Virus record (IMG/VR): IMGVR_UViG_3300032288_003079 | Span: 1 to 28,458 of that record | Length of the DNA stretch: 28,458 nt | Source: a virus | Reading direction: 5' to 3' (one strand) | Shown: piece by piece, positions 2,261 to 28,458 of the stretch | Numbering within the stretch: position 1 is the stretch's first letter | Layout of the letters: the number at the start of each line of letters is the position of its first letter | Notes under the pieces: generated by a model | What the model saw: the letters and a program-made list of their open reading frames with translations, nothing else | The model's database searches: none | What the model was told of the DNA's origin: nothing | Position numbers and translations under genes: made by a program

Positions 2261-4342
2261 TTAAGCAGTTACGTTTCCTGCAACAAATACATTTGAATTA
2301 TTATAATATCCAAGCTGCACTGTACCATCTAGCCTTTTAAATGCAACTTTGGAGTAGTTACCATATATAACAGTGGCTGCTGAAATGTTTCCAGAAAGGT
2401 TTGCATTTCCGCTTGCTTCTATAAAACTTATGTTTTTAGATGTAAGTGTTCCACTAGCTGAAAAATCAAAACTACTTGTATTTAGAATGTTTGATTCTAC
2501 GGTACACAACTGCAATACATTACTTGTAAAACTACTGTATTGTAAATCATTTCTGCGTATAGTTGTATTACTAGTGATTGTATTTTCTTGAATAGAACTT
2601 AAATTAGACAGATTGTTATATGATATATTACCACCACTAAAAATATTATTAGTTATTTTACTCTGACTAGTTAGCGTATTATATTTAATTTCACAACCAC
2701 TACCTGAATTGTTGTATATTTCACTCCCTGTATTTAAAGTGTTATACTGAATCCTTGGATATCCTAATGTAAGATTATTATAACCTATTCGAGCTTGACC
2801 ACTCAAATAATTCCATGATATAGAAAGGGAAGCTCCAGTGTTTGCAAAAATGTCAGATTCACCAAACAATTCATTTTCGTATATATCTGTACTAGTTACT
2901 TCATTACCAGATATGGTTGAAAAATTGCTAAGAGTGTTTCCATATATGCTAGAATTATTTAAGTAATTACTATCAATGCTTACTCCTGAATATGTAGCAC
3001 CTGCACTTGTATTTAAAACGTTAGAATCAATAAGACCACTTTGTAAAAAGTTATATTCTATTCCTCCCGAATTCATAACATTTCTAGAAATGTAAGAAGG
3101 TTGAGATAAAACAGTTAATGTATTCTCATCTATGTATGTTTTTTGATTTAGGATATTATCAATAATACCAGTATAATAAAAAAGACCACCATTATCAAGA
3201 TTGTTGTAATATATACCAGCTTCATCATTTATTGTATTTCTTGCAATAATACATTGATGTAATGCATTGCCTTCAATTCCACTAAAATTATTTAACACAT
3301 TGTCTAAGATTTCTGATATATTACCACTAAATGAATTATCTAAAATATAACTACGTGCACTTAATGTGTTTCTATAAATAGAACCTTCTCCTATATTTCC
3401 ATCCATTTGACTTTCTTGTGTCAAAGTGTTTTGGCAAAGTTTAAACCCAGTAAAATTAATACACCCTAAATAACTATCTTTTACATAATTACTATAAATA
3501 CCTCTACCAGTATAAATAGAGTCAGGATAGTTGCCCCATTGAAAACCTTTTATCGGATGACCATATCCTATTTCTAAGAAATTGTAAGTAAAATCAACAT
3601 CGTTGTCCCACTTATCTTTTCTTCTGATGATTAAATCATGCTCATAATCATAATGAATAATATCAACCACTACATTGTAATCAACATCATTAAACGGTAT
3701 GACAGTCCAATCAGCTCCTGATAGAGTATAAATATCTACAGCTGTTCCTAAATTTCCAGATGTATTCACCCAATGTTTGCCACCCCATATAACATTGTCT
3801 CCAATATTATAAGTGGGATTTGCTACACCAAATCCTGAAACAGTTGCTGTAGTTAATGAATAACCTCCTGTAACAGTTGTAGCGGTGGACCAATCACCAC
3901 TTAGCCATTGAATTAGCCCATTAGTAAAATAATATCCTGTGGCCCCATTATCTGCTGTTAATTCTGTATAATAATAATAAGATTCGCCAAAAGGAATGTT
4001 TGTAAGTAAAACATTTTTAACATAATCTTGCCAAATATTGGAACCATTAATTAAGTATTTGGGATTGTAAAATATACCATGTCCTGCAAGAGCCAATTTG
4101 TTTGTTGTAGCAGCTTGAATGAGAATTGTTGTACCTCCATATAATGGAACATCTACTCCAGAAATCTCATAAAATTGTCCTGGAACCAGGGAGTTTGCAC
4201 TAATCAATGCATCCACCTCTGCTTTTGTTACAGACACAATGGTTGATCCACCACCGCCTCCAACAATATCCTCAAGGTTTAACCATCCTTTGTATCCATT
4301 CTTTTCGAGAGCCCAGAAACCAGTTTTAATGTAATGTGGCAT
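2261..4342 (-). CDS. 693-aa beta-helix tail fibre
   Basis: The N-terminus (1-25, ALEKNGYKGWLNLED) and a Gly run (29-32) lead to a conserved module (36-100: AEVDALISANSLVPGQFYEI, GVDVPLYGG, LALAGHGIFYNPKY). A second conserved block at about 183-250 includes VIWGGKHW and YDYEHDLIIRRKDKW. From about 300 to 630 come repeats such as 'I..N.L...S.I..NTL', typical of a right-handed parallel beta-helix. The last ~55 residues form a shared cap (ATVIYGNYSKVAFK, VQLGYYN). The 633-aa protein at 13488 has the same layout from the module onward. Probable host-binding fibre or depolymerase-like adhesin; no catalytic residues are recognised. Confidence 0.85.
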   Translation of the reverse strand: MPHYIKTGFWALEKNGYKGWLNLEDIVGGGGGSTIVSVTKAEVDALISANSLVPGQFYEISGVDVPLYGGTTILIQAATTNKLALAGHGIFYNPKYLINGSNIWQDYVKNVLLTNIPFGESYYYYTELTADNGATGYYFTNGLIQWLSGDWSTATTVTGGYSLTTATVSGFGVANPTYNIGDNVIWGGKHWVNTSGNLGTAVDIYTLSGADWTVIPFNDVDYNVVVDIIHYDYEHDLIIRRKDKWDNDVDFTYNFLEIGYGHPIKGFQWGNYPDSIYTGRGIYSNYVKDSYLGCINFTGFKLCQNTLTQESQMDGNIGEGSIYRNTLSARSYILDNSFSGNISEILDNVLNNFSGIEGNALHQCIIARNTINDEAGIYYNNLDNGGLFYYTGIIDNILNQKTYIDENTLTVLSQPSYISRNVMNSGGIEYNFLQSGLIDSNVLNTSAGATYSGVSIDSNYLNNSSIYGNTLSNFSTISGNEVTSTDIYENELFGESDIFANTGASLSISWNYLSGQARIGYNNLTLGYPRIQYNTLNTGSEIYNNSGSGCEIKYNTLTSQSKITNNIFSGGNISYNNLSNLSSIQENTITSNTTIRRNDLQYSSFTSNVLQLCTVESNILNTSSFDFSASGTLTSKNISFIEASGNANLSGNISAATVIYGNYSKVAFKRLDGTVQLGYYNNSNVFVAGNVTA

Positions 4343-5515: not shown

Positions 5516-5800
5516 TTAATTTAATTCTATTTCAAAAACAATTGTTGCTGAGCTCTTTATACTCTTTGACAAATTTAACTTAATTTGTAATAAGTTATGA
5601 AGTTTCAATATCTCTTCCAGCAACATTTGGTTGTATTTTGGAAGGGAAGGGGCAAGCCTGAAGTGGTATGCATCAGGGTGCCTTGTCACTTCTAATATTG
5701 AAAGCTCATCTACAGAGTCTATTACACCCTGTAAATGAGAGAAATATGCTAGTTCGTTGTCCTGCATTACAGGAGGAAAGAACTTTTTGTGTAGTTGCAT
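5516..5800 (-). CDS. Hypothetical 94-aa protein
   Basis: No family is recognised. The central part (LAPSLPKYNQMLLEEILKLHNLLQ) predicts one amphipathic helix, followed by a hydrophobic strand (SATIVFEIELN). It begins MQLHKKFFPPVMQDNE. Its start overlaps the stop of the gene at 5800 (TAATG), and the gene lies in an otherwise gapless tail operon, so it is likely expressed. Function cannot be assigned. Confidence 0.7.
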   Translation of the reverse strand: MQLHKKFFPPVMQDNELAYFSHLQGVIDSVDELSILEVTRHPDAYHFRLAPSLPKYNQMLLEEILKLHNLLQIKLNLSKSIKSSATIVFEIELN

Positions 5801-12106: not shown

Positions 12107-12295
12107 TTATAGTGGTGGAGCTTCAGTTGTGGTGGTGGTAGTAGTGGTTTCATTGCAGCACTCGTAAGCTGGTATCTCTACCCATTTACCCACCTTAGGC
12201 TTCTTCCTTCTAAGGATTAGGCTGCTAGGGACTATTCTCCCAGAACCGTCAAAGCGTACATAAGCTTTGAGAGGGCGTTTGTCAATTGTGGCCAT
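12107..12295 (-). CDS. 62-aa minimal A-head protein with short poly-Thr tail
   Basis: Residues 1-47 form the A head in what looks like its clearest form (LKAYVRFDGSGRIVPSSL, PKVGKWVEIPAYECC). Then come Asn-Glu, eight Thr and EAPPL, after which it stops. The same TTTEAP linker ending occurs inside the 346-aa protein at 23341. It overlaps the upstream glycosyltransferase gene by 14 nt. As with the next gene, no body domain follows the linker. Confidence 0.85.
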   Translation of the reverse strand: MATIDKRPLKAYVRFDGSGRIVPSSLILRRKKPKVGKWVEIPAYECCNETTTTTTTTEAPPL

Positions 12296-13307
12296 AATCT
12301 AAATTATATTTGTTTTTAATATTGAATAACTGTTTTAAGTAGTAGTGATTACAGAGTGTCCTACTCTTCTCACTATCAAGCACCTCGTAGATGTGTGGGT
12401 CTTTAAAAGGACTATCACCTGTGTGGTATTTGCCCTTATAGAATGTAGGAATGTCACCCTGACTATCTCCTACAATCCCTGCATTATGCAGGATGCCCAC
12501 TCTATCAAGTTTGGATATATTATCTGAGCTCCATGCAAATTCCATTTCTGGAATGTTTTTTGTCTCTTGTTCCCTCAACCAGAGGTTCCAGAGAACAGCC
12601 CACATATCTGCACACCAAGATTGATATCCTTTACTTTCGTTCTCGAAGTAATCTTTATTTATATTTCTGAGGTAGGTTCTGATGATTAAGCAATCATTCA
12701 ACACCTTTTCCCAGAAGCTTGCGCCTATGTTCTTCAGGAGATATTGTGCACCCCCTGAATGTTCATTGTTACGCTCACAGATTTCCCTAGTGATTCCTAT
12801 CATACTTGTAACCTCTGATAGAACATCCCTAGTTTTGTATTCCTCCAGTTTCTCTGGAAGAACATCTTTAATCTTACTATCAAAATATGAAGCGTTGATG
12901 TAACTGTTTGTATCTGAGAGATAGCATACATCATCCTCCAGGTAGCTGTCTATGTTGAAGTTCTCTGTGAAAACAACATCGCTGTCACAATAGAACACAG
13001 CTTTGTTCACCATTTCTGGGTGAGCCTGGAAGTATTTCATCAATGAATAAGGGCGCAACACAGGAATGTACACCTTCAACATTTGGCTAATCTTGTCCTC
13101 ATCCTTGACATAAAAAAACTCAGATTCTGGATAGAGATCTGCTACCTTTTGCCATGCTTCATTCCTTTCTCTGAAGTCTGGAGTGAACACTAGAACAATA
13201 GCTTTATCAGAATGTCCAAGTGTTTTGAGACTTTCTAGCCACATGTGCACTTGCCAGATGTAATAATTATCGTCTGGTTGTGCACAGATGAATTTCAAAT
13301 CCTTCAT
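12282..13307 (-). CDS. GT-A type glycosyltransferase, 341 aa
   Basis: The N-terminus KFICAQPDDNYYIWQVHMWL followed by alternating strands and helices, and the FYCDSDVVF motif (D108, D110: the DxD metal and nucleotide-sugar site), indicate a GT-A glycosyltransferase. Later segments (NNEHSGGAQYLLKNIGASFW, CADMWAVLWNLW, GILHNAGI) fit acceptor and C-terminal elements of such enzymes. Acceptor and sugar cannot be read from sequence. The gene lies between two Thr-tailed mini-genes (12107 and 13340) in the adhesin operon, so tail-protein glycosylation is a natural hypothesis; modification of host glycans is the alternative. Confidence 0.85.
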   Translation of the reverse strand: MKDLKFICAQPDDNYYIWQVHMWLESLKTLGHSDKAIVLVFTPDFRERNEAWQKVADLYPESEFFYVKDEDKISQMLKVYIPVLRPYSLMKYFQAHPEMVNKAVFYCDSDVVFTENFNIDSYLEDDVCYLSDTNSYINASYFDSKIKDVLPEKLEEYKTRDVLSEVTSMIGITREICERNNEHSGGAQYLLKNIGASFWEKVLNDCLIIRTYLRNINKDYFENESKGYQSWCADMWAVLWNLWLREQETKNIPEMEFAWSSDNISKLDRVGILHNAGIVGDSQGDIPTFYKGKYHTGDSPFKDPHIYEVLDSEKSRTLCNHYYLKQLFNIKNKYNLDYGHN

Positions 13308-13487: not shown

Positions 13488-15389
13488 TTATGCGTTTACA
13501 TTCACTACAGTGAATACATCAGATGCGTTATAGTAACCAAGTCTGACAGTTCCTGCACTATTCTTAAATATTTGTTTAGAATAATCACCATAAATTATTG
13601 TAGCTGTTGAGAGGTCAGCTAATACACTTGATTCTTTTACTTCTATATATCTAATTTTTTTATTTACTAGTGAACCACTATTATTAAGACTAAGGTTAGA
13701 ATTATTTAATATATTATATTCAATTTCATTTCTATTTAAGCTATTAGTGGCTAATAAAGAACCAAATTCAATATAAGTATTATATAAGTTATTGTAACTC
13801 AAACCAGAATAAGTTAATGTATTACTGTAAATATTACTACCAAGTGTCAACGTATTGCCTGATATAGCAGACTGATTATCTATATTATTGTATTGAATTT
13901 TGCTGTTATAATCTAGGTCATTACCGTCAACAAAACTATTTATAACATTAGTATCTATTCTACTACTATTGTTTAATGTATTATTTTCAACAGTACCATC
14001 ATTAATTGTATTATATATAATCGTAGAAGTACTATTTAATATATTGTATCTAACAAAACTATTATTAGTTATTGTATTCTGATTAATTGATCCAACGGTT
14101 AATGTATTAGCAATTACATTACCATTACTAGTTAAAGTATTGTATTGAATACTACTTCTATTTAATTTATTATAAGTAATTTCGCTATCAACTATTGTAT
14201 TTTGAGATATTTCTGATCCGTTAGTTAATTCATTGTTTATAAAATAGCCATTTGTTAAATATATATTATATATATTACATTCTGATTCTACTAAATTTCC
14301 ACTAAGTTCACTGTTTGTTAATACAATATTATACATTCCAGTATAAAATACATCAGTTGCGTAACCTCTTGTTGTTATAATATTTTGACTCACTAAACTA
14401 TTTTTGTCTGAAATTATATTCCAAATAAAAGCTGTTTGTGTTAGTGTATTATAACTTAGCTGCTGACCAATAAAATTAATACATTCCAAATAGCTATCTT
14501 TTACATAGTTACTAGTTACACCTAATTGATATGAAAAATCAAAATCTTCAGGTCCATTACCCCATTGGAAATCTTTTATAGGGTTACCAAGATTATAATT
14601 ATTAGCTATATAAAAAGTCTCATAATTACTATCTACATCATTGTTCCACTTATCTTTTCTTCTGATGATTAAATCGTGCTCGTAATCATAATGTATAATG
14701 TCAGCTACAACATCATAGTCTACATCATTGAAAGGAACAACAGCCCAATCTGCTGAAAGAGTATATTTGTTAGTAGCAGTACCAACGTTTCCTGTTACAT
14801 TTGTCCAATGTTTACCACCCCAAATAACGTCTTGACCTATTGCATAAGAAGGACTAACACCACCTGTTACATTGGCTGTTGCTCCACTTCCATTGCTAAT
14901 GCTTGTAGCTGCAGACCAGTTACCACTTACCCACTGAAAGAAATTTTTTGCAAGATAAATTGCTGTAGCACCATTGTTTGCTGTAACAGTGTTACCGTTA
15001 TAAAATGTTCCAACAATGTTAGACATTGTTATTGTCATATAATTACTCCATATACCATAACCATTATTTGGAGTGAGCTGGCTATTTAAATATCTAGGAT
15101 TATAGAACAACCCATGACCAGCAAGGGCTAGCTTGTTTGTAGTTTCAGCTTGAAGAATGACAGTGGTGCCACCGTACAAGGGAACATCAACTCCAGAGAT
15201 AATGTATGTTGTACCTGGAACAAGTGAATTAGAACCTATAAGTGTATCCACCTGAGCTTTGGTAACCACCTCAGCTCCACTTGGAATAAGTTTGGATGTA
15301 ACACCAGTGAGCCTCTCTATTTGTTTAGCAATTTGCCAGAGAAGATTGGATTCATTTGACCAGCCTATTTGTCTATTAGGTATTGACAT
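13488..15389 (-). CDS. 633-aa B-head beta-helix tail fibre
   Basis: Residues 1-37 are the B head (QIGWSNESNLLWQIAKQIER). Then comes the same module as in the 693-aa fibre (AQVDTLIGSNSLVPGTTYII, GVDVPLYGG, LALAGHGLFYNPRY), a second shared block (VIWGGKHWTN, YDYEHDLIIRRKDKW), a long Asn/Thr/Ser-rich beta-helix repeat region ('NTL..NS.I..N.L'), and the same C-terminal cap (TATIIYGDYSKQIFKN, VRLGYYN). It is a paralogue of the product at 2261 with a different virion-attachment head. The helix rungs have diverged much more than the conserved blocks, as expected for the binding surface. Confidence 0.87.
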   Translation of the reverse strand: MSIPNRQIGWSNESNLLWQIAKQIERLTGVTSKLIPSGAEVVTKAQVDTLIGSNSLVPGTTYIISGVDVPLYGGTTVILQAETTNKLALAGHGLFYNPRYLNSQLTPNNGYGIWSNYMTITMSNIVGTFYNGNTVTANNGATAIYLAKNFFQWVSGNWSAATSISNGSGATANVTGGVSPSYAIGQDVIWGGKHWTNVTGNVGTATNKYTLSADWAVVPFNDVDYDVVADIIHYDYEHDLIIRRKDKWNNDVDSNYETFYIANNYNLGNPIKDFQWGNGPEDFDFSYQLGVTSNYVKDSYLECINFIGQQLSYNTLTQTAFIWNIISDKNSLVSQNIITTRGYATDVFYTGMYNIVLTNSELSGNLVESECNIYNIYLTNGYFINNELTNGSEISQNTIVDSEITYNKLNRSSIQYNTLTSNGNVIANTLTVGSINQNTITNNSFVRYNILNSTSTIIYNTINDGTVENNTLNNSSRIDTNVINSFVDGNDLDYNSKIQYNNIDNQSAISGNTLTLGSNIYSNTLTYSGLSYNNLYNTYIEFGSLLATNSLNRNEIEYNILNNSNLSLNNSGSLVNKKIRYIEVKESSVLADLSTATIIYGDYSKQIFKNSAGTVRLGYYNASDVFTVVNVNA

Positions 15390-15406
15390 TCTTAATATTG
15401 TTTGTT

Positions 15407-16741
15407 CTATCTACTAATTTCTTCCCAGTCTATGGAAGCATATGCACCTAACACTCCTCCCACTGTATCTATAGCCATTTCTACAACTAGCTCATAAGGT
15501 ATTCCAGCTAGTCCATTTCTCTCAAGCTGATTAGAAAAGAGGGCTTCTTTGAGGATGTTAATTGATGGAGATCCCTGGTTAGATGAATTTACAAATCCAC
15601 TAGCCAACACTCTTCCACCTGTAGCACTTGTTCCTGTAATATTATATTCTACAGCAGAATCACCACCAGCAGGTAACCAACTTCCTCCAGAGATTGCTAC
15701 ATTACCATTCAGTATTCTCCACTGATAGTTCTTTCCATTACCAAGTCCTAAAAGGGATACGGCTGTTGCAATTACAATAGCATCAAGTCTTGTAGATTGA
15801 AGTCTTATACCTACAATTGGATAGTATGTACCAGCTACAGCAAATGTTGCTGGTGCAGTGATGGGTGTACCAATAGATTGTTGTTTACCTCTAAGTTCAT
15901 ACCCACCCTCTGATATCACTGTAGAACAAATCTGTTTAAGTGTAGATGCTCCAGTTGTACCAGTTTCATTGAAAAGCTCATAACGCAGTGGTAATGAGGC
16001 AGTTGTGATGTATGTACTAGTGATGATGTTTGCATGGTTGAATGTATGGCAAACAATAAACTGTCCGTTAATTACAAATCCCATACGTACAGAACCTACA
16101 CCCAGCCACTCAAGGTCCATCCAATAAATCTGAGCCTTGGTTAGGTCAAGAGTGAGTCCTGAAGCACCTGTTCCATCAAGCTTATCTCCATTCCAGTCTG
16201 ATTGTGGTACAGGAGTTTCTACCAAAGAACCAGTGACAACACTTCTTTTTACAAAAGCTATATCAGAATTTGCTTGTTCTAAATAGAACCCATTCTCATC
16301 TCCATAATATCCAACACGTTGTGTAAGTCCTGCTTTGGCAGCACTCATTACAAACGTGTTAAGAACAAGAAGTGACTTACCTGGTTGGTAAGCAAACACC
16401 TTAATTGTTTCTCTCAGTACGGAAGATCCAGAAGCTGCTGTAACAGTCAAGTCAACTAGTCCCTGATTACCATTAAATACAGCTGTACCACCAGTGGATG
16501 TTTCTGTAGCCCACAAATCATTGTCATCAAATCTGTGACTAGAATCAAACATTGTAAATGGTTCAGATACTCTTTGTCTTCCAAATGCATCTGATGCAAC
16601 AGCAGGCAACACCACATTAATAGGATTTGTGGAAGATCCGTTAGACTTTGAACTTCTCCAAAATCTATCTAGATCATTCCAGATACCCCACAGGAGATTA
16701 GCTTCCTGAGTCCAGCCTATTTGTTTATTAGGGATTGCCAT
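15407..16741 (-). CDS. 444-aa B-head tail protein (SDAFGRQRVSEPF family)
   Basis: The B head (QIGWTQEANLLWGIWNDL) is followed by a Ser/Asn-rich linker (30-42) and then VASDAFGRQRVSEPFTMFDS, a motif I remember from structural or tail proteins of marine and freshwater phages. The body is mainly beta (FDDNDLWATETSTGGTAVFN ... VLRETIKVFAYQPGKSLLVL) and lectin-like in character; it ends YASIDWEEISR. No enzyme motif is seen. It is the first gene of the tail block, and a predicted promoter ends 8 nt before its ATG. Confidence 0.85.
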   Translation of the reverse strand: MAIPNKQIGWTQEANLLWGIWNDLDRFWRSSKSNGSSTNPINVVLPAVASDAFGRQRVSEPFTMFDSSHRFDDNDLWATETSTGGTAVFNGNQGLVDLTVTAASGSSVLRETIKVFAYQPGKSLLVLNTFVMSAAKAGLTQRVGYYGDENGFYLEQANSDIAFVKRSVVTGSLVETPVPQSDWNGDKLDGTGASGLTLDLTKAQIYWMDLEWLGVGSVRMGFVINGQFIVCHTFNHANIITSTYITTASLPLRYELFNETGTTGASTLKQICSTVISEGGYELRGKQQSIGTPITAPATFAVAGTYYPIVGIRLQSTRLDAIVIATAVSLLGLGNGKNYQWRILNGNVAISGGSWLPAGGDSAVEYNITGTSATGGRVLASGFVNSSNQGSPSINILKEALFSNQLERNGLAGIPYELVVEMAIDTVGGVLGAYASIDWEEISR

Positions 16742-16748
16742 AAGTTTA

Positions 16749-16778
16749 CAAATCTATGCATTAATATCTGATTAACAA
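16749..16778 (-). promoter_or_regulatory. Bacteroidetes-type promoter, near-leaderless, before the tail-fibre block
   Basis: On the minus strand TTG (16778-16776), a 19-nt spacer and a perfect TAnnTTTG box (TAGATTTG, 16756-16749) precede the ATG at 16741 by only seven intervening bases. Transcription would start at or within a few bases of the start codon, so the mRNA would be leaderless or almost so. Confidence 0.6.
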
Positions 16779-16834
16779 TGAGCTATAATAAAATCGATTA
16801 ACCGATTTAATTAAATTCACTCTAATCAAATTGA
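16779..16834. other. AT-rich spacer with short inverted repeats
   Basis: This spacer between the lysis block and the tail block holds AAATCG-N6-CGATTT (16791-16808) and the palindrome TTTAATTAAA (16806-16815). AATCAA-N-TTGATT (16824-16836) runs into the stop of the next gene. They could be operator half-sites upstream of the promoter or a weak terminator. The low GC content makes chance a real alternative. Confidence 0.3.
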
Positions 16835-16963
16835 TTATTTTCCTTGACCTCTGTACTTAGATACAGCCTTGTCTTTTGGTCCTTTGGTTTTGGTAGCTTT
16901 TCCTTTCTTACGCTTACCAAAACTTATCTTTCTGGACTCTCCTGATGATTTTGATTTTGCCAT
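16835..16963 (-). CDS. 42-aa very basic protein
   Basis: The short frame starts MAKSKSSGESRKISFGKRKK and ends SKYRGQGK. Over a third of residues are Lys or Arg. The start forms a TAATG overlap with the stop of the upstream membrane-protein gene, and it opens MAK like the small basic proteins at the left end, which it resembles in composition. DNA-binding or virion-associated role is guesswork. Confidence 0.65.
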   Translation of the reverse strand: MAKSKSSGESRKISFGKRKKGKATKTKGPKDKAVSKYRGQGK

Positions 16964-17331
16964 TACAAGATAATTGATAATATAGTGATGAATATAAAAA
17001 TTCCATAATATGGAAAATATCCATATTTAGCCTGAAATCTATAAGACAGTCTGTCAATTATTGATGTTGTGGTAGATGATATGTAATCAAATCGCAGCCC
17101 TCTCATAATGTTTAGGGCTGTATCAAATACCACTCTTCTTAGTGATAGGAGTCCTATTATAAAGAACCAGTCTTTTAGATATAGATATACAGGGAGCAGG
17201 AGAAGGATGTACAATAGGGCATTCAACCCATGATATATCCTTAAATGTAATTTGATGCGCTCAGCATCATGATATGCTAGAATGAGATTCATTCCAACAA
17301 AAAGGAATGCTATGGCAAGCTTCACCAGCAT
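16963..17331 (-). CDS. 122-aa small membrane protein
   Basis: Hydrophobic segments at about 1-20 (LAIAFLFVGMNLILAY), 33-52 (LNALLYILLLLPVYLYL), 56-64 and 104-122 (YYGIFIFITILSIIL) predict three or four membrane helices. Between them is a basic, Arg-containing stretch. No family is recognised. Its start overlaps the stop of the next membrane-protein gene (TAATG). Its place just downstream of the endolysin suggests a lysis accessory such as a second holin, antiholin or pinholin. Confidence 0.72.
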   Translation of the reverse strand: MLVKLAIAFLFVGMNLILAYHDAERIKLHLRIYHGLNALLYILLLLPVYLYLKDWFFIIGLLSLRRVVFDTALNIMRGLRFDYISSTTTSIIDRLSYRFQAKYGYFPYYGIFIFITILSIIL

Positions 17332-17645
17332 TATGCCTCCAGTATTGCTTCAATTGCAATCAATAACCCCATGATTTCCAACAAGATAAACACTAACCAG
17401 AAGGCAGAATATATCTTGTTTCCTCTGTCATCATTGGCTGAAAACTTATCTTTAAATCCTACATAGCCCACCATGATGGATGAACCAATCAAAGCATAGA
17501 TTGGTGTAAGCAGAAATACCAACCACTGTCCACCCCCATAAATCCATTGTCTACCTGCATCTGTTTTCCAGATAGCAATCTGAAGGAGTGTGGCTACTAG
17601 AAAACCTATTACACCAAATACTCCAGCTTCTCTAATCTTTTTCAT
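17331..17645 (-). CDS. 104-aa membrane protein with three predicted helices
   Basis: Starting at MKKIREAGVFGVIGFLVATL, it has helices at about 8-26, 41-64 (WLVFLLTPIYALIGSSIMVG) and 79-101 (AFWLVFILLEIMGLLIAIEA), with a charged loop (FKDKFSANDDRGNK) before the third. The frame is open to an ATG at 17726, but that would overlap the end of the endolysin gene and add a non-membrane leader; 17645 follows the endolysin stop by 16 nt and is preferred. Candidate holin or antiholin. Family not recognised. Confidence 0.75.
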   Translation of the reverse strand: MKKIREAGVFGVIGFLVATLLQIAIWKTDAGRQWIYGGGQWLVFLLTPIYALIGSSIMVGYVGFKDKFSANDDRGNKIYSAFWLVFILLEIMGLLIAIEAILEA

Positions 17646-17661
17646 ATTGTTTAGTTTTAAT

Positions 17662-18279
17662 TTACAATAGTTCAGCGTAGAACAGTTTAAACTTGGATAT
17701 ACGATCAGCAAGTCCATGTGTTCCACCGTTCACCTTTCTAGTCACATCAGTGACAACAGCATCTGTAGCTCCTTTATCTGCAACAGCATTAAGTTTTGTC
17801 TTATCCCAGAACCAGGCTGCAGAGAGCAAAGGATATTTTGAAGCCACTAGCTCAGGGCTAGCAACCAAATCCTCATCAACAAACTGGTCGAATGCTTTAT
17901 AATTGTCCTTACCTGTCAATTGGATAGCACCCCTCCCACGAAATTTGAACCCCTCACCAGTAGATTCATCACCATTTCCCATACGTGAAGCATACACTCT
18001 AGCCCCTATCTTCTCTGGATTACGTGCATACTTTTCAGCCAAAGCTCTGTCAGGAGTGCCATCAGCTTTCCTGAAGTATTTAGGAAATACAGTGAGCAAT
18101 CCATCTGTAGAATAGTTTAGGTTCTCAGTGAACTTGCTAAAGTTACCACTCTCATGGGCACATTGAGCAAGGAAATGGGCTAGTCTAAGGGGTGTATTAA
18201 TCTTAAACTTATCCATCACAGCTGGTATCTGCTCAATAATGTTAACAGGAATCTTAGTCTTAAGCTTCTCCAGATTCAT
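17662..18279 (-). CDS. GH19 endolysin (chitinase-family peptidoglycan hydrolase)
   Basis: The 205-residue protein has the GH19 hallmarks: AHFLAQCAHESGNFSKFTEN with probable catalytic Glu43 and Glu52, YARNPEKIGARVYASRMGNG, and FRGRGAIQLTGKDNY (113-127), then an AAWFWDKTKLN helix and VTRKVNGGTHGLADR near the end. Phage GH19 enzymes cleave the glycan strands of peptidoglycan. There is no signal peptide, so release needs a holin; a holin candidate overlaps its start by 20 nt. No separate cell-wall binding domain is present. Confidence 0.95.
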   Translation of the reverse strand: MNLEKLKTKIPVNIIEQIPAVMDKFKINTPLRLAHFLAQCAHESGNFSKFTENLNYSTDGLLTVFPKYFRKADGTPDRALAEKYARNPEKIGARVYASRMGNGDESTGEGFKFRGRGAIQLTGKDNYKAFDQFVDEDLVASPELVASKYPLLSAAWFWDKTKLNAVADKGATDAVVTDVTRKVNGGTHGLADRISKFKLFYAELL

Positions 18280-18508
18280 CTTTCTTAGTTTTTATTGTTT
18301 GCCAAGCGGATATTCCCAGGGAAAGAGCAGCAAATGCTGCTGTTGCCTCTACCAAAACATCTGACGGTTTAATATCTCCATGGGTAAAGCTGTTAGCTAG
18401 TAGGGTGATACACAAGGATGTAGCAGCCATCCCACCAAAGAATCTCTTGCTGCTAATCTTTCCATCCTCTGAAAAGAGACTCCATAAAAAGTTCTTAATT
18501 GTTTTCAT
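18260..18508 (-). CDS. 82-aa holin candidate
   Basis: It has two predicted membrane helices, about 23-41 (FFGGMAATSLCITLLANSF) and 51-69 (VLVEATAAFAALSLGISAW), a basic N-terminus and a highly charged C-terminus (KTKKDESGEA), as in class II holins. The gene overlaps the endolysin by 20 nt and the lipoprotein gene by 14 nt. Size, topology and position make it the best holin candidate in the block, though the two small membrane genes downstream compete. Confidence 0.75.
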   Translation of the reverse strand: MKTIKNFLWSLFSEDGKISSKRFFGGMAATSLCITLLANSFTHGDIKPSDVLVEATAAFAALSLGISAWQTIKTKKDESGEA

Positions 18509-18875
18509 GTTCTATTACGGTTGAATCTACAGACTGAGCACTATCTGTTGTAACCTTTTTCTTACCCCAGAAGTTTGTCTTTTCTTTAATATATACAGTG
18601 TCTCTAACTGTGATAGTTTTTACAATAAGTGCTTCTTTCTTCAGAGACTCATTCTCTTTCTTAAGTTCATCCACCTTATGTGCTATGTTCTTCTCAAGCT
18701 TTTCTATCTTTTTATCTACGCTTGGAATGTACACAAGGATTGAATCATGTAGTTTCTCAGAAGCTATTAATACACTATCGTAAGTTGTTTCTACGATAGG
18801 TTCCTCTTTTTCAGCAACCTTTGCCATGCATGATGTGAAGAGGAAAGCAATCGATAAGAGGTAAATGTTTCTCAT
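18495..18875 (-). CDS. 126-aa lipoprotein with coiled coil, candidate outer-membrane spanin
   Basis: A short signal peptide (MRNIYLLSIAFLFTSC) ends in lipobox FTSC, predicting lipidation at Cys16. Residues 40-85 are heptad-like and charged (DKKIEKLEKNIAHKVDELKK), followed by VRDTVYIKEKTNFW and an acidic end. It would be anchored to the outer membrane facing the periplasm. It overlaps the TM/coiled-coil gene upstream by 4 nt, the arrangement of two-component spanins, which fuse inner and outer membranes in the last step of lysis. Spanins evolve quickly, so assignment rests on architecture and context. Confidence 0.7.
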   Translation of the reverse strand: MRNIYLLSIAFLFTSCMAKVAEKEEPIVETTYDSVLIASEKLHDSILVYIPSVDKKIEKLEKNIAHKVDELKKENESLKKEALIVKTITVRDTVYIKEKTNFWGKKKVTTDSAQSVDSTVIEHENN

Positions 18876-19155: not shown

Positions 19156-19761
19156 TTAGAGTTTAATATAAAAACTTGCGCCATACACAGGCTTACCATT
19201 AGGGGCAACGCCTGCAGAAATTCCATATAACCTATCACGTTTGGTTTTGAGCATCAATCCAACGCTTGGATTTTGAGCACCGCTCCCTTGTAGGTAGTCC
19301 ATTCTAGCACCCATGTACAGGTGTGCTTTTGGTTTTTCTTTTACAATGGTTGTGTTGGTTATTGTAGGAAATTTCAAATCTGAAGACAGAGATCTGCCTG
19401 CAAGTTTATTATATTGAACTGTATCCTGTATATATATTCGTCCAAATTCACCAAGTTTCATGGTGTCTTTGAACGTGTTTTTTGCGTAATATTTTGATAA
19501 GACTTCTTCCATCTGTGCAGAGTCAAGCACAGGCACAGGTACATAAATAGTAGTGTCATGATAGATGTCTTCTCCCTTTTTATATTTAGTTTCTTTTATC
19601 TTAACGTATTGAGTATCAATCACTTGTTTAACGACCTCATACTTCTTACCTTCCACAACAACTGTCTTACCTGGAACTACAGGCTTACCACACTCAGCTT
19701 TGTATAACAGAACCAAAACTAATACTCCAAGAAGGATGTTTACTATTCGATTAACTTTCAT
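19156..19761 (-). CDS. 201-aa membrane-anchored protein at the head of the lysis block
   Basis: Starting at MKVNRIVNILLGVLVLVLLY, it has one N-terminal membrane helix (6-21), a periplasmic region with Tyr/Thr/Lys-rich strands (KIKETKYKKGEDIYHDTTIY), and a C-terminal beta part ending YGISAGVAPNGKPVYGASFY-IKL, which resembles the last strands of an outer-membrane beta-barrel, including the aromatic end. It could bridge inner membrane to outer surface, as a single-protein spanin would, but two better spanin candidates follow. The frame extends to 19866, but that adds 35 unlikely residues over a hairpin, so 19761 is chosen. Confidence 0.75.
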   Translation of the reverse strand: MKVNRIVNILLGVLVLVLLYKAECGKPVVPGKTVVVEGKKYEVVKQVIDTQYVKIKETKYKKGEDIYHDTTIYVPVPVLDSAQMEEVLSKYYAKNTFKDTMKLGEFGRIYIQDTVQYNKLAGRSLSSDLKFPTITNTTIVKEKPKAHLYMGARMDYLQGSGAQNPSVGLMLKTKRDRLYGISAGVAPNGKPVYGASFYIKL

Positions 19762-19783
19762 TACGTTGAGTTGTAAATAAAAA

Positions 19784-19820
19784 TAACACACCATTCCCTC
19801 CGAAAAGAAATGATGTGTTA
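19784..19820 (-). terminator. Leader hairpin followed by U-rich run: possible attenuator of the lysis operon
   Basis: Read on the minus strand, TAACACATCATT (19820-19809) pairs with AATGGTGTGTTA (19795-19784): twelve pairs with one G-U, around a 13-nt loop containing GGAGGG. A T-rich stretch (TTTTTATTT) follows at once, the form of an intrinsic terminator. It ends 22 nt before the first gene of the lysis block, so it could attenuate leftward transcription. The stem is AT-rich, so strength is uncertain. Confidence 0.55.
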
Positions 19821-19840
19821 TGTAATTTGTATCACTTAAT

Positions 19841-19855
19841 TGCCCGTGCAGGGCA
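19841..19855 (-). other. Small GC hairpin in the lysis-operon leader
   Basis: TGCCC and GGGCA flank a five-base loop. It is the most GC-rich spot of the intergenic region and lies inside the predicted leftward leader RNA, between the 5' palindrome and the terminator-like hairpin. Confidence 0.4.
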
Positions 19856-19872
19856 TAATATAGCATTAATAC

Positions 19873-19886
19873 AGAGGTACACCTCT
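19873..19886. promoter_or_regulatory. Perfect 14-bp palindrome at the predicted leftward transcription start
   Basis: AGAGGT-AC-ACCTCT is a perfect inverted repeat beginning about seven bases downstream of the leftward -7 box. It could be an operator at the start site or a hairpin at the extreme 5' end of the leader RNA. No other copy was noticed in the window. Confidence 0.45.
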
Positions 19887-19892
19887 AGGTAA

Positions 19893-19924
19893 CAAAACTA
19901 TGTATTTTATTTGAAACTACCAAA
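19893..19924 (-). promoter_or_regulatory. Leftward Bacteroidetes-type promoter of the lysis operon
   Basis: On the minus strand TTTG (19924-19921), a 20-nt spacer and a perfect TAnnTTTG box (TAGTTTTG, 19900-19893) are seen. The start would fall near 19888, leaving a leader of about 125 nt before the ATG at 19761. Its upstream half overlaps the rightward promoter. Confidence 0.65.
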
Positions 19925-19941
19925 TCTTTTTTGTACATTTG
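19910..19941 (+). promoter_or_regulatory. Rightward Bacteroidetes-type promoter of the glycosyltransferase gene
   Basis: TTTG (19910-19913), a 20-nt spacer containing a T6 run, and a perfect TAnnTTTG box (TACATTTG, 19934-19941) stand five bases before the ATG at 19947. The mRNA would be leaderless or nearly so. This also argues against translation starting upstream at the TTG at 19911. Confidence 0.68.
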
Positions 19942-19946
19942 CCTCT

Positions 19947-22900
19947 ATGCCAAACAGTTATACATTTTTCAAAAGCGAGGTTAGAGATTGGTTCATTCAG
20001 AATGTTCCAACTAACAAGAAAATCTTGGACGTTGGTCCAGGACAGGGTACATATTCTATGCTTCTCAAACACGTAGGATATAAGATGGACGCTGTGGAGA
20101 TATGGGAACCGTATGTTGAGCAGTTCAATCTGAAGGATAAGTATGATAATGTCCATGTAGGAAACATTATGGAATTCCTGATAGATGGATATGACTTCAT
20201 TATATTGGGAGATATATTAGAACACCTGTCGGTTGAGGATGGTCAGAGGCTGATTAACCATATATCCACCCTGGGTAAGGAGTGTCTTGTTGCTATTCCC
20301 TACACCATGGAGCAGGATGGGGAAGAATATGGGAATGTTTATGAAACTCATCTACAACCAGACCTCACACAGGAGGTGATGACTCAACGTTATCCAGATC
20401 TGGAACCTATATTCGTCAACCAGTATTATGGATATTATGTTATGCTCCATCATGTAATGGAAAAAGCCTATGTGCTCTATGCCACTCCTTCATACAAGAA
20501 TACATTGGAAGGATGTGTAGCTTCTCTGAAAAGATTCAGTGACATCCCTGTAATTGTATACATGCTTAACTCTGATGTAAAGATAAAGGGAACAAAAACC
20601 ATTAGGTGGAACTGTCCTGTGGAGGATGTATTTCAAAGACCACATGTAGACAGGAAAGACCCCAGGATATATCATATTCTTATACAGCGTCCACTGATTG
20701 TAAAGGATGCTCTCAAGTATGCTAATGTTGTAGCTTATGTAGATGCTGACAGTGTGGCCACTCCCAATGTTGATGGTATATTCAACATGTTTGATGAAAC
20801 ATCTGTCCATCCATATTTTGTTGAGGGTATATATGAATACCTACTATACGATGGGAAATCAGATATAGAATCTACTATATTAGCACTGTTTCGTGTTACC
20901 CGAACTAATGTATACAGACAGACAGGATTTTTTGTAGCTGGTCAATTGTGTAAAAGGTTTCTGGATGAGTGGTGGTGGATGTGTAACCATCCAAGTATTA
21001 TAGATAATCCATTTATGTATGCACCATTCCATGAGGAAACTGTAGTGAATGTTCTCTTATGGAAGAATGGCTATACAGAAGGGCTACCATATATTTATAC
21101 CAATGGGTCACTGGATGCAATAGATGATGTAAATAGAATTGGCTTCACTGGAACAAATAACCTGGTGAGAGACTGGTTTAAAATACCAGCTAGTAAAGAT
21201 AAACTATTGTTCTTCCATGGAGAGAAAAACAAGGATGTTATGTTAAAGATGATAAACAGGCTCACTGGTAGGTTGAAAGTGTTGTTTTTAGCACCTCACC
21301 TGTCTACAGGAGGAATGCCTGGGTTCTTGTTAAAGAGGATTCAAACATTAAAACAAGATGATGTAGAAATCATTGTTGTAGAATATACAGACTATGGTCC
21401 AGCGTATGTTGTACAGAAAAACCAGATCAAGGGGTTGGTTGACTATTTCTACACCCTAGGAGAGAATAAGTATGAGCTTCTTGATATTATCAAAAGGCAT
21501 AATGTTGATATAGTGCATTCAGATGAGATTGTTGAGGGATTTGATAGCCATAACACCATACCAACAGATCTTATATTGAAACTTTATGCAGATGACAGAA
21601 CCTGGAGAATGGTAGAGACATGTCATAATGTTTGGTTCCAGTCAAGCAATAAGATGGTGCAGCCAGAAGCTTATGCATTCTGTACACCACATCATCTGAA
21701 GACATTTGCAGATATGCCTAGTTATAAGGAAGTGCTAGAGTTTCCTATAGATGATAGGATAGGATCGTTCTATGACCAGATGGAAGCTAGAAAGATCTTA
21801 GGATTTGTCAATAATAAAAGACATGTTGTAAATATAGGACTGTGGACTCCAGGTAAGAACCAGGGAGAAGGGCTTGAGATAGCTCGTAAGTATCCACATA
21901 TGATGTTCCACTTTGTAGGGAACCAGGCAGTGAATTTTCAGGAATACTGGGAGCCCCTGATGAAGGACCTACCAGAGAATGTCAAGATATGGGGAGAGAG
22001 AAATGATACAGAATTGTTCCTCACTGCTGCTGATATATTCATGTTCAACAGTACATGGGAGTGTAATCCCCTTGTCTTGAGAGAAGCTATTTCCCACCAG
22101 CTACCTATTATTGCTAGGAACTTGCCACAGTATGAGAATATGTTTACACCATATCTGCAACCAATTGATACAGATTTGGATACAATCGTGTGTGATTATA
22201 CAGTTCCTACCTACAATACATCTGAAAATTTTGGACTAGCTCACTATGATTTCTACAAATATGTACTATCTCTACCTATTAGGAAACAGGAAACAAAGAG
22301 CAACGTAACTATAAGCCAGAACTTTGTAGAGAATCCATTCCTTGAAATCAAGGGAACCAGTGTAAACAAGTTCAAGGTGGTATTCCATGATGATAAAGGA
22401 GTGTTGCATTACAGTGCGGAGATAGGTGTAAACTCCTGGGTGAAACTGAATAGACAGTATTTCACTAAATGGATAACTAGTGTATGGGAGAATGACAAGC
22501 TTATATATCAGAATGTCCTGAGTTTAAAGGATAGAAGAGTTTACATAGCATTTGATAGCAGCTCCCTGGGAGATAATATTGCATGGATACCGTATTGCTT
22601 AGAGTTCAAGAAGAAGCATGACTGCCATGTAATAGTGAGCACATTCAAGAACTTCTTATTCAAAGATGCCTATCCAGAACTGGAGTTTGTAAATCCAGGA
22701 GATGTAGTTCCAGATGTATATGCTATGTACAAGATAGGTTGGTTCTATGATTCAAATAGAGAACCAGCTTTACCCAACACTGTAAACCTACAACAGTGTG
22801 CAGCTAACATATTAGGACTTGATTATCAAGAGATTAGACCAAGAATAAGTTATCAAATTGGTAACAATCCATATGGTAAATATGTTACGATAGCCACCAA

Positions 22901-23384
22901 CTCTACAGCAGGTTGTAAGTTCTGGACCAAAGAAGGATGGCAAGGAGTGATCAATTATCTGATAGAGCAGGGATATAGCGTTGTGAATGTATCTAAAGAA
23001 AAAAACCCCTTTGAAGGGGCTTTACAAATAGAAGATGATTCCATGGAGAACACAATGAATGTTATTCATCATTCTCAATTCTTCATAGGACTAAGCTCAG
23101 GACTTAGCTGGTTAGCATGGGGTATGGGTAAGAAGGTTGTGATGATTAGTAATTTCACACAACCTGATCATGAGTTCAGCTGTATAAGAGTAACTAAGAA
23201 GGATGTGTGCAATGGATGCTGGAACAATCCCAACTTCAAGTTTGATAGAGGAGATTGGAACTGGTGTCCAGTTCACAAAGGAACAGACAGACAGTTTGAA
23301 TGTCATACATCAATAACGTCACAAGATGTAATTGATGCAATTACACAGGACATGCAGGAGGAACATTACTATTACCATACGTAG
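19947..23384 (+). CDS. 1145-aa fusion: methyltransferase + GT-A + GT4-like + TibC/Aah-type heptosyltransferase
   Basis: Residues 1-155 are a class I SAM methyltransferase (ILDVGPGQG, 26-34). Residues 170-435 are a GT-A glycosyltransferase (KAYVLYATPSY; YVDADSV with D266/D268). Residues 443-780 are a GT-B, GT4-like enzyme (KVLFLAPHLSTGGMPGFLLK; E705-x7-E713). Residues 783-1145 resemble the autotransporter strand-loop-strand O-heptosyltransferase family (TibC, Aah): SSLGDNIAWIPYCLEFKKKH, VSTFKNFLFKDAYPELEFV, NILGLDYQEIRPR, and a four-Cys set C1088-x2-C1091-x15-C1107-x11-C1119 like the metal finger of TibC. Those enzymes attach sugars to Ser/Thr of repetitive adhesins. It is the only plus-strand gene here, and its end overlaps the converging gene by 44 nt. 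Substrates are unknown. Confidence 0.88.
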   Translation: MPNSYTFFKSEVRDWFIQNVPTNKKILDVGPGQGTYSMLLKHVGYKMDAVEIWEPYVEQFNLKDKYDNVHVGNIMEFLIDGYDFIILGDILEHLSVEDGQRLINHISTLGKECLVAIPYTMEQDGEEYGNVYETHLQPDLTQEVMTQRYPDLEPIFVNQYYGYYVMLHHVMEKAYVLYATPSYKNTLEGCVASLKRFSDIPVIVYMLNSDVKIKGTKTIRWNCPVEDVFQRPHVDRKDPRIYHILIQRPLIVKDALKYANVVAYVDADSVATPNVDGIFNMFDETSVHPYFVEGIYEYLLYDGKSDIESTILALFRVTRTNVYRQTGFFVAGQLCKRFLDEWWWMCNHPSIIDNPFMYAPFHEETVVNVLLWKNGYTEGLPYIYTNGSLDAIDDVNRIGFTGTNNLVRDWFKIPASKDKLLFFHGEKNKDVMLKMINRLTGRLKVLFLAPHLSTGGMPGFLLKRIQTLKQDDVEIIVVEYTDYGPAYVVQKNQIKGLVDYFYTLGENKYELLDIIKRHNVDIVHSDEIVEGFDSHNTIPTDLILKLYADDRTWRMVETCHNVWFQSSNKMVQPEAYAFCTPHHLKTFADMPSYKEVLEFPIDDRIGSFYDQMEARKILGFVNNKRHVVNIGLWTPGKNQGEGLEIARKYPHMMFHFVGNQAVNFQEYWEPLMKDLPENVKIWGERNDTELFLTAADIFMFNSTWECNPLVLREAISHQLPIIARNLPQYENMFTPYLQPIDTDLDTIVCDYTVPTYNTSENFGLAHYDFYKYVLSLPIRKQETKSNVTISQNFVENPFLEIKGTSVNKFKVVFHDDKGVLHYSAEIGVNSWVKLNRQYFTKWITSVWENDKLIYQNVLSLKDRRVYIAFDSSSLGDNIAWIPYCLEFKKKHDCHVIVSTFKNFLFKDAYPELEFVNPGDVVPDVYAMYKIGWFYDSNREPALPNTVNLQQCAANILGLDYQEIRPRISYQIGNNPYGKYVTIATNSTAGCKFWTKEGWQGVINYLIEQGYSVVNVSKEKNPFEGALQIEDDSMENTMNVIHHSQFFIGLSSGLSWLAWGMGKKVVMISNFTQPDHEFSCIRVTKKDVCNGCWNNPNFKFDRGDWNWCPVHKGTDRQFECHTSITSQDVIDAITQDMQEEHYYYHT
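22999..23023 (-). terminator. Intrinsic terminator for the leftward tail operon, inside the plus-strand coding region
   Basis: On the minus strand AAAGCCCC, loop TTCAAA, GGGG and seven T make a GC stem, extended by A-T pairs around one unpaired G, followed by a U tract. It lies about 320 nt beyond the stop of the leftward gene at 23341. On the plus strand the same hairpin is followed by only three T. The bases encode KEKNPFEGAL of the heptosyltransferase-like domain, so they serve both strands. Confidence 0.75.
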
Positions 23385-24381
23385 CATATACAGAGCTATG
23401 TAAAGGTGTTGGGCTCACTGTATAAGTATCTGATGTAGGAACACTGCTATCATAAACAATCTCTGTGCTGTTTGTAACATTACATATTCTATATTGAGCA
23501 ACCTCTGCACCAGCTGTTACAGTGATAGTTGCTGTATATGGAGTTTTAGATTGTGGTATATAAATAGTTCCAGTGATAGGACCAGTTCCTTGTGACTCTT
23601 GGTTTACCAACTCAGTGTTGGTGTTATCTTTAATAATCAATTGTACAGCACCACTTCCTTGTTCATCCACTCCCCAATCAACCTGCACCTGAAGTTCAGT
23701 GGTTGTAGTAGTGGTTGTAGTAGGTGTCTCAGTGGTGGTAGATGTAGTGGTGCTAGTAGATGTACTAGTAGTTGTAGACGTGCTACTAGTAGTGGTGGTT
23801 GTAGATGTACTGCTTGTAGTGGTGGTTGTGCTAGTAGAAGATGTGCTTGTTGTGGTTGTAGTTATAGGAGCACATGTTGTAAAGTTATCAATTTGAGTGC
23901 TGTAAGTAAAATTAAAACAAATTCCTATTCCACCAGAAGCCCAGAAATATCCACCAGTAGATGTAAATGGTATAGTTCTAGCAGCGTCTAAGAATAAAAG
24001 AGCTCCATTATTGAGTGTTGAAACACTATATACAGTGAGAAGAGGAGTTGCTGTTGCATAACATGCATCACAAGCATCCAAGTTAGTTCCATATCCATTA
24101 TATGTACCACTACTATATCCTATTGCATAAACCAAGCTTGGTTCAAAACTAGTTGTAGTGGTGGTGGTAGTGGGAGCTTCAGTAGTAGTTGTGCTAGTGG
24201 TGGATGTAGAAGTTGATGTGGAAGTGGTTGTAGATGTAGAAGAACTAGTTGTAGTGGTTGTTGTACCAGCTTGAGGAAACACCAATGTGCTTCCAGCATA
24301 CACCTTTTGTACAGTAACTGTTCCCACCTTCAGTTCTCCCAGGAGATCAATAAACGTATTTCCTACATACAGCTTTCCCAT
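23341..24381 (-). CDS. 346-aa tail protein with two mucin-like Thr/Ser linkers
   Basis: Domain 1 (1-37, MGKLYVGNTFIDLLGELKVG, KVYAGSTLVFP) is a short beta module. Linker 1 (40-78) is almost only Thr and Ser with one EAP. Domain 2 (80-172) is a Cys-containing beta domain (YAIGYSSGTYNGYGTNLDAC, YFWASGGIGICFNFTY). Linker 2 (174-228) is again almost pure Thr/Ser with one ETP. Domain 3 (229-346) is an Ig-like or fibronectin-like beta domain (VQVDWGVDEQGSGAVQLIIK). The linkers resemble O-glycosylated mucin stretches. The adjacent gene, overlapping tail to tail, is the four-domain glycosyltransferase, making this a prime candidate substrate. Likely virion appendage. Confidence 0.85.
   Translation of the reverse strand: MGKLYVGNTFIDLLGELKVGTVTVQKVYAGSTLVFPQAGTTTTTTSSSTSTTTSTSTSTSTTSTTTTEAPTTTTTTTSFEPSLVYAIGYSSGTYNGYGTNLDACDACYATATPLLTVYSVSTLNNGALLFLDAARTIPFTSTGGYFWASGGIGICFNFTYSTQIDNFTTCAPITTTTTSTSSTSTTTTTSSTSTTTTTSSTSTTTSTSTSTTTSTTTETPTTTTTTTTELQVQVDWGVDEQGSGAVQLIIKDNTNTELVNQESQGTGPITGTIYIPQSKTPYTATITVTAGAEVAQYRICNVTNSTEIVYDSSVPTSDTYTVSPTPLHSSVYATYGNSNVPPACPV
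23698..23862 (-). repeat. Thr/Ser-coding triplet tract, linker 2 of the 346-aa protein
   Basis: Fifty-five codons specify Thr and Ser apart from a single Glu-Thr-Pro. Sub-blocks of the form TTTTTSSTS recur three times in tandem (about residues 175-202), indicating expansion by small duplications. Confidence 0.88.
24148..24264 (-). repeat. Thr/Ser-coding triplet tract, linker 1 of the 346-aa protein
   Basis: Thirty-nine codons encode Thr and Ser with one EAP. Alternating ST pairs (STSTSTST) dominate the centre. Codons vary, so amino-acid composition rather than DNA sequence appears conserved. Confidence 0.88.
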
Positions 24382-28001: not shown

Positions 28002-28458
28002 TTATATGAAATTATAAAAATTAAATAATGTTACTGCTGCTGCTTGTGCTTGTTGTGGAGAAGTGATGTTTCCTGTAAACCCTACAATATCTATTATATC
28101 ATTTAGAGATGCTGCATCAACAAGTGTTATACTGTTTGATGTAGCACCAAACTGATCTATCTTTACACCATTCAAATATACATCAAAATAGTTAGCAACC
28201 AATGTGTTAGTGGTTGTAAATACAGTTTGACCAGCTGTGGCTGTGAATGTTTCAGCAAACCTTGTAAAGGTTGGTGTGATTCCACTTGACCCACTTGTTC
28301 CTGAAGTACCATCTACTCCACTTGTTCCTGATGAACCTGTTCCACCACTAGATCCACTACTACCAGAAGTTCCTGTCGTACCTGATGATCCACTGGTACC
28401 ACTTGTACCAAAGGTTCCATCAATTCCACTACTTCCAGAGGTGCCAGAACTTCCACTA
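28002..28458 (-). CDS. Collagen-like tail protein, N-terminus outside window
   Basis: Only the last 151 residues are inside. Residues to about position 59 are Gly-X-Y triplets, mostly GTS and GSS with occasional GID or GVD, a collagen-like stalk typical of phage fibres. Then FTATAGQTVFTTTNTLVANY and FDVYLNGVKIDQFG begin a compact beta domain, a frequent trimerising or tip domain in phage proteins, ending TLFNFYNFI. Trimer formation is inferred from the collagen-like triplets. Confidence 0.85.
   Translation of the reverse strand, partial: SGSSGTSGSSGIDGTFGTSGTSGSSGTTGTSGSSGSSGGTGSSGTSGVDGTSGTSGSSGITPTFTRFAETFTATAGQTVFTTTNTLVANYFDVYLNGVKIDQFGATSNSITLVDAASLNDIIDIVGFTGNITSPQQAQAAAVTLFNFYNFI
28281..28458 (-). 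repeat. Collagen-like Gly-X-Y repeat, continuing off the right edge
   Basis: About 59 residues in strict Gly-X-Y phase are encoded, with Thr and Ser at nearly all X and Y positions and no Pro at Y. Thr at Y can carry sugars in bacterial collagen-like proteins, so this is a further possible glycosylation target. Confidence 0.85.

Follow-up and report, generated by a model that had tools for sequence, protein, structure and literature searches.

Why should a tailed phage join sugar transferases and a methyltransferase in one polypeptide, and what would such an enzyme act upon? The question is raised by a 1145-amino-acid (aa) protein encoded on an IMG/VR virus contig of 28,458 bases (the whole stretch of DNA analyzed, referred to here as the window). 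An earlier note, made from the sequence, had read four domains in this protein: an S-adenosylmethionine (SAM) methyltransferase, two glycosyltransferases (GT) of GT-A and GT4-like type, and a domain like that of the adhesin heptosyltransferases TibC and Aah. The identity of these domains is close to certain. We consider it moderately probable that this tailed-phage protein works in the cytoplasm as a multi-domain synthase of protein O-glycans and modifies the phage's own virion fibres, where acceptor, donor, order of steps and role are what we infer. The gene and its parts are as follows.

19947..23384, + strand: the fused enzyme, 1145 aa, ATG start
19947..20426, + strand: class I SAM methyltransferase domain, aa 1-160
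20445..21254, + strand: GT-A domain, aa 167-436, with DAD at 266-268 and HEETxxN at 362-368
21264..22271, + strand: GT4 (GT-B) domain, aa 440-775, with E705-x7-E713
22299..23351, + strand: TibC/Aah-type O-heptosyltransferase domain including its N-terminal beta-barrel, aa 785-1135

One frame, four domains

The protein is encoded in a single uninterrupted frame. The open reading frame (ORF) listed by the program is longer (1157 aa) and begins at a TTG at 19911, within the -33 box of the promoter described below. The N-termini of homologues have the form MP(N/Y)S and match the ATG start at 19947. The four-domain order recurs in one frame in 38 independent IMG/VR contigs (21 clusters at 90% identity), and an assembly or frameshift artefact is thereby ruled out. 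The ratio of nonsynonymous to synonymous substitution rates (dN/dS) is 0.15 against the nearest relative (L002) and 0.09-0.24 across seven pairs, indicating purifying selection. At the DNA level, no match to positions 1-25000 of the window was found among 50,697 phage records. In a structural model of the full protein (mean predicted local distance difference test score, pLDDT, 86.7; predicted template modeling score, pTM, 0.43), the domains appear good and their mutual placement uncertain.

The C-terminal domain is of TibC/Aah type

The earlier note's assignment of the C-terminal part to the TibC/Aah family is confirmed by profile and by structure. The TIGR04414 profile (autotransporter strand-loop-strand O-heptosyltransferase, BAHT; NCBIfam) matches aa 809-1133 with 281.6 bits against a cut-off of 200, and the GT9 family PF01075 (Pfam) matches aa 978-1098 above its cut-off. 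The sole strong sequence matches in PDB are two TibC entries, 4rap (E 3.7e-52) and 4rb4. Profile and sequence matches together go well beyond what chance would produce. Foldseek, given the full model, ranks TibC first (E 4e-31, template modeling (TM) score 0.85 by target length). The alignment to 4rap spans 371 columns, compared with a TibC chain of 381 residues, and includes the N-terminal beta-barrel, the strands of which lie at 787-857 in the model.

In TibC, Asp110 is the base, Thr226, Lys230, Arg286 and Trp305 belong to the donor site and Cys339/342/358/370 hold iron (PMC4358343). These residues were transferred onto the enzyme through HMMER alignments.

22572..22574, + strand: catalytic base D876 (TibC D110), in 81/81 aligned proteins
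22917..22919, + strand: donor-binding K991 (TibC K230), in 81/81 aligned proteins
23208..23303, + strand: iron-finger C1088/C1091/C1107/C1119 (TibC C339/C342/C358/C370), in 81/81 aligned proteins

T987 (TibC Thr226) and W1055 (TibC Trp305) are likewise present in all 81 proteins. The signatures SSLGDNIAWIPY (872-883) and VSTFKNFLFKDAYPELEFV (897-915) and the four cysteines lie where the earlier note had placed them. Apart from these two linear strings, the motifs that it cited are invariant in proteins having the domain concerned. At the stereoselectivity site, Pro300, phage proteins have Ser or Gly; AAH has Ser there and accepts both heptose forms.

GT4, GT-A and methyltransferase domains

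The GT4-like domain with E-x7-E is borne out by PF00534 (Pfam), which matches aa 612-734 with 36 bits (cut-off 26.4, E 6.3e-9), and by conservation of K637, E705 and E713 in 81/81 proteins. The GT4 enzymes MshA, PimB and WaaG follow TibC in the Foldseek search with the full model.

The GT-A domain is modeled by AlphaFold with a pLDDT of 93. Searched alone against PDB with Foldseek, it returns a top 50 that consists nearly entirely of GT6 structures (E ~1e-8, TM ~0.5). D266, D268, E363, E364 and N368 are invariant wherever the domain occurs. No GT family in Pfam or NCBIfam matched aa 167-436, nor was there a significant PDB sequence match; the domain is therefore GT6-like in fold and not a GT6 member. 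Its invariant HEETxxN resembles the HDExxxN of GT6, an HxE-type motif being common to both. The GT-A call with D266/D268 thus stands on structure and on the invariant Asp pair, and is refined in that the nearest fold is GT6, with no sequence family.

For the SAM methyltransferase, PF08241 (Pfam) matches aa 27-108 by a narrow margin (22.2 bits, cut-off 21.2), and motif I, DVGPGxGTY, is conserved; this domain call, too, is confirmed. PF13489 gives 23.1 bits, which is under its cut-off.

A constant core with changing outer domains

The enzyme family is widespread among phages of aquatic habitats. Scanning viral contigs brought up 142 relatives, and the 80 that were kept form 50 clusters at 90% identity. 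Besides the 21 clusters with the order seen in the window, 12 have only GT4 and heptosyltransferase, 10 have GT-A, GT4 and heptosyltransferase, and the remainder are variants. These include forms with a polysaccharide pyruvyl transferase inserted between GT-A and GT4, and forms that start with an FkbM methyltransferase, a GT25 domain, or an extra GT9 plus methyltransferase. Throughout this clade GT4 and heptosyltransferase stay fused, and turnover affects the other domains. A tree of the core with 62 rows requires 18 or more changes of architecture; it is a quick tree, on which a few labels depend on ORF starts.

The TIGR04414 domain was found in 23 of 24 records searched, including that of the isolate Microcystis phage Mel-JY01. 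The fused protein of this phage (PP395634.1, 4750-8430; 1226 aa, 317 bits) is annotated as 'methyltransferase FkbM', a label that overlooks its GT4 and TIGR04414 domains. A 735-kb phage encodes another fusion, of 738 aa. Stand-alone TIGR04414-like forms of 385 aa are common in freshwater phages (L164 and about 57 other loci); this clade is apparently undiscussed in the literature found. At least two phage lineages that have just 2-4 proteins in common both carry the gene, so it moves between phages. Two exact-peptide-pattern scans of 84,980 bacterial and archaeal genomes returned no relatives, although the patterns were strict and absence is unproven.

Proposed function and candidate acceptors

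O-glycosylation of the phage's own fibres is the best-supported and most likely of the predicted roles. The TibC-type domain would attach the first sugar (a heptose or a similar one) to Ser/Thr residues of freshly synthesized virion proteins, the likeliest acceptors being the Ser/Thr-repeat tail fibres encoded alongside. A second sugar would come from the GT4 domain and a third from the GT6-like GT-A domain, and the methyltransferase at the N-terminus would methylate the glycan end; the C-to-N order of the domains would thus mirror the order of building. Domain shuffling fits a glycan that would be built and capped by one polypeptide, as the earlier note had suggested. In relatives, where the methyltransferase or GT-A is missing or a pyruvyl transferase or FkbM methyltransferase is added, the first two steps would stay constant while the outer domains are exchanged, so that the outer glycan end would differ between phages. 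It is possible, and we put this forward tentatively, that the fixed core (TibC-type initiation plus GT4 extension) with fast-exchanged outer domains is a cassette system that varies the sugar coat of tail fibres in aquatic phages, a counterpart of surface-antigen variation, with some phages carrying part of the ADP-heptose pathway. Glucosylation of DNA by the enzyme is judged unlikely from its family membership.

Four ORFs of the window were considered as acceptors.

23341..24381, - strand: candidate acceptor, Thr/Ser-repeat protein of 346 aa, convergent with the enzyme gene (3' ends overlap by 44 bp), with a 40-residue stretch that is 100% Ser/Thr
28005..28457, - strand: candidate acceptor, incomplete ORF at the edge of the window for a collagen-like tail fibre (best match to PHROG tail-fibre families 4.4e-8)
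2261..4342, - strand: less likely candidate acceptor, 5-residue-period repeat protein, a predicted solenoid judging from its hydrophobic period of 5
13488..15389, - strand: less likely candidate acceptor, 5-residue-period repeat protein with related ORFs in 21 loci

No homologue of the 346-aa protein was found in related loci, in which other Ser/Thr-repeat fibre genes stand in for it. Most loci with enough flank have Ser/Thr-repeat ORFs near the gene, of TTTSTST (window), TSGTSG or TPTQTPTNTS type, and such ORFs again adjoin the fused forms in a second phage set. The TSG proteins are collagen-like tail fibres (PHROG). Within 10 kb, TSG repeats occur at 34 of 57 fused clusters (about 60%) versus 0 of 30 stand-alone clusters (p 4e-9).

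Several findings on acceptor and donor weigh against the proposal. With clustering at 70% identity the TSG association falls to p about 0.05, because the stand-alone forms are close kin. Ser/Thr-rich ORFs also occur elsewhere in the genome in six large contigs, and their closeness to the enzyme gene is therefore suggestive only. In the alignment to TibC, the enzyme has ~10 residues fewer in the beta-hairpin thumb, on which the TibC dodecamer depends. There is no autotransporter among the family matches of the main window ORFs, which are instead to phage structural genes. Known TibC substrates are Ser in beta-helix proteins, not disordered Thr-rich stretches.

This last difference bears on a second reading, in which virion glycosylation falls not on Thr/Ser-rich repeats but on fibre shafts of beta-solenoid or YadA-head-like form, which have strand-loop-strand turns. 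The invariant iron finger, which binds substrate, is in keeping with it, as are the two 5-residue-period proteins of the window. One relative (L006) encodes, near the enzyme and heptose genes, a 1262-aa fibre (19532-23320, - strand) with GGGxxNTASG repeats and an apparent S74-type chaperone region at its end; this candidate is solenoid-like, nearer to known TibC substrates, and resembles a trimeric-autotransporter head. Solenoid proteins are, however, unsupported as general neighbours, the 2261-4342 protein having no homologue in other loci, and we regard shafts of this kind as a rather unlikely target compared with the Ser/Thr-repeat fibres.

The sugar donor

The further findings that weigh against the proposal concern ADP-heptose. 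Arg286 contacts adenine and is required for TibC activity. Its equivalent here is T1036 in two independent alignments (79 Thr and 2 Val among the 81 proteins), and across a second and broader set of phages Val, Ala and Leu predominate there, with Arg three times; the 735-kb phage (L084) retains Arg. The remaining active sites are kept in the wider set, save for one Thr-to-Ser change. To judge from these residues, catalysis looks intact and the adenine contact altered. Heptose-pathway genes are absent from most relatives, which would depend on supply by the host. With Thr1036 here and Val, Ala or Leu in other phage clades, ADP-heptose may not be the donor everywhere.

Support for ADP-heptose comes from two relatives with heptose-pathway-like genes next door. 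In L006, the enzyme gene is followed by HldD-like (162 bits), HldE-I-like (115) and HldE-II-like (97) genes, for each of which the heptose family is the best match, yet under the equivalog cut-off. L005 has HldD- and HldE-I-like genes at the equivalent place beside the enzyme. In a 636-kb phage (W04), GmhA is matched above cut-off ~26 kb from a stand-alone heptosyltransferase. The 28-kb window record, searched for HldD and HldE-I, gave no match to either. ADP-heptose is thus the likely donor for some members; in the window enzyme itself it is uncertain, because of the Thr at the Arg286 position and the HldD/HldE-I result.

The same position, variable across phage clades, and the missing heptose genes would suit a heptosyltransferase domain that takes another nucleotide sugar and makes a heptose-free glycan. 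Against this, the remaining donor-contact residues are invariant, HldE/HldD-like cassettes adjoin the enzyme in two relatives, GmhA is present in W04 and the host may supply ADP-heptose; we think a different sugar improbable on balance, though worth keeping in view.

The L006 cassette (13604-18587, - strand) comprises HldD-, HldE-I- and HldE-II-like ORFs together with HAD phosphatase, cupin, APS-kinase-like, sulfotransferase-like and GT9-like ORFs. A 'cytidylyltransferase-like' neighbour in the Microcystis phage was considered as an HldE homologue and rejected by profile.

Promoter, host and gene neighbourhood

Two further features of the window are the following.

19910..19941, + strand: Bacteroidota-type promoter TTTG-N20-TACATTTG, 5 nt before the ATG, by sequence and pattern match
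12282..13307, - strand: companion protein with a DSD motif, a possible second glycosyltransferase (phrog_4417, 5.5e-53), with a relative nearby in 37 loci

The Bacteroidota sigma-A promoter has a -7 box of the form TAnnTTTG (PMC9723704). Of 47 dereplicated relatives, 27 have such a box in the 60 nt upstream (2.7 expected), and 12 have the full -33/-7 element (0.1 expected). The match in the window is not significant alone (0.73 expected by chance), and recurrence in the relatives carries the weight. This recurrence favours Bacteroidota as hosts of much of the clade, and the window virus probably infects Bacteroidota. Scans for sigma-70 promoters and terminators were at or near chance level; the informative pattern was the Bacteroidota consensus. 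A second Bacteroidota-type promoter (19893-19924, - strand) overlaps that of the enzyme, and the two genes are apparently fired divergently.

Both flanks are visible at 71 loci, and at 49 of these the two neighbouring genes run on the strand opposite to that of the enzyme gene. A host-type promoter of its own and inversion relative to late genes in many loci are moron-like features. They could indicate an enzyme that alters the host surface during infection, its targets being lipopolysaccharide (LPS), capsule or adhesins of the host; superinfection, for instance, might thereby be blocked, or released phage receptors hidden. LPS and capsule pathways typically use GT4 and GT9-like domains. The heptosyltransferase, however, has the beta-barrel and iron finger of the TIGR04414 type, which acts on proteins, and is no WaaC/WaaF equivalog; fibre genes are nearby; and soluble catalytic domains explain all ordered regions, although no dedicated search for membrane helices was made. 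Action on the host surface is therefore distinctly improbable, and decoration of the phage's own fibres is preferred.

A relative of the phrog_4417 companion in Chryseobacterium phage MA9V-3 likewise adjoins Thr-rich ORFs. MA9V-3 has this gene in common with the large relatives, yet only 2-5 proteins in total with each, and is without the heptosyltransferase. Also present in the structural region of the window is a 1292-aa BspA-type leucine-rich repeat protein (6218-10096, - strand; PF13306, 7.5e-75). Other minus-strand ORFs encode a Dps-like protein kept in 19 related loci (5800-6204), a lipoprotein-like product with thrombospondin type 3 repeats and a weak zinc-protease match (4346-5251), and a GIY-YIG homing endonuclease with relatives in just two related loci (833-1456).

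Comparison with known systems

The literature found describes TibC-type protein heptosyltransferases solely in partnership with bacterial adhesins. In the phages analyzed here, genes for them are common, both as stand-alone forms and in fusions. The phage domain resembles TibC/Aah (TIGR04414, PDB 4rap) in profile, beta-barrel fold, catalytic Asp, Thr, Lys and Trp, and four-Cys iron finger. It differs in its fusion to GT4, GT-A and methyltransferase domains, in the change of Arg286 to Thr, in the shorter thumb hairpin and in being phage-encoded beside fibres, not autotransporters. The GT-A domain has the GT-A fold and DxD of GT6 (blood-group A/B transferases, BoGT6a), from which it differs in having no sequence-family match and a TM of only ~0.5. 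The capsular polysaccharide multienzyme of A. pleuropneumoniae (PDB 8qoy) likewise joins several polymer-building domains in one protein; unlike the phage enzyme it makes a capsule polymer, and it is a weak global match at Foldseek rank 35.

The earlier note knew of no described phage protein with this combination, and we found none in the open-licence literature, nor a description of a phage O-heptosyltransferase. The nearest precedent is A064R of chlorovirus PBCV-1, a single polypeptide in which two glycosyltransferases and a methyltransferase build and methylate a capsid glycan (PMC9614988). The architecture is alike; for the phage enzyme, a structural protein is the predicted target. A064R lacks a heptosyltransferase, completes a capsid N-glycan instead of initiating an O-glycan and belongs to a virus with an algal host; no relationship is claimed. 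Virion glycosylation in mycobacteriophages (Freeman 2023, as cited in PMC11256854 and PMC12619734) likewise relies on phage-encoded transferases that modify the virion's own proteins. In these two accounts it concerns capsid and tail-tube proteins, and no TibC-type enzyme is reported in them.

The fused forms hold their core and trade finishing domains, which makes a testable claim on how phages decorate fibres, a matter that bears on adsorption, host range and immune recognition. As glycan synthases that consist of one natural chain, they are also of use for the O-glycosylation of proteins. That a single protein can unite more than one viral transferase and act on a capsid glycan was already known, as was glycosylation of virions; what appears new is the TibC-type phage fusion.

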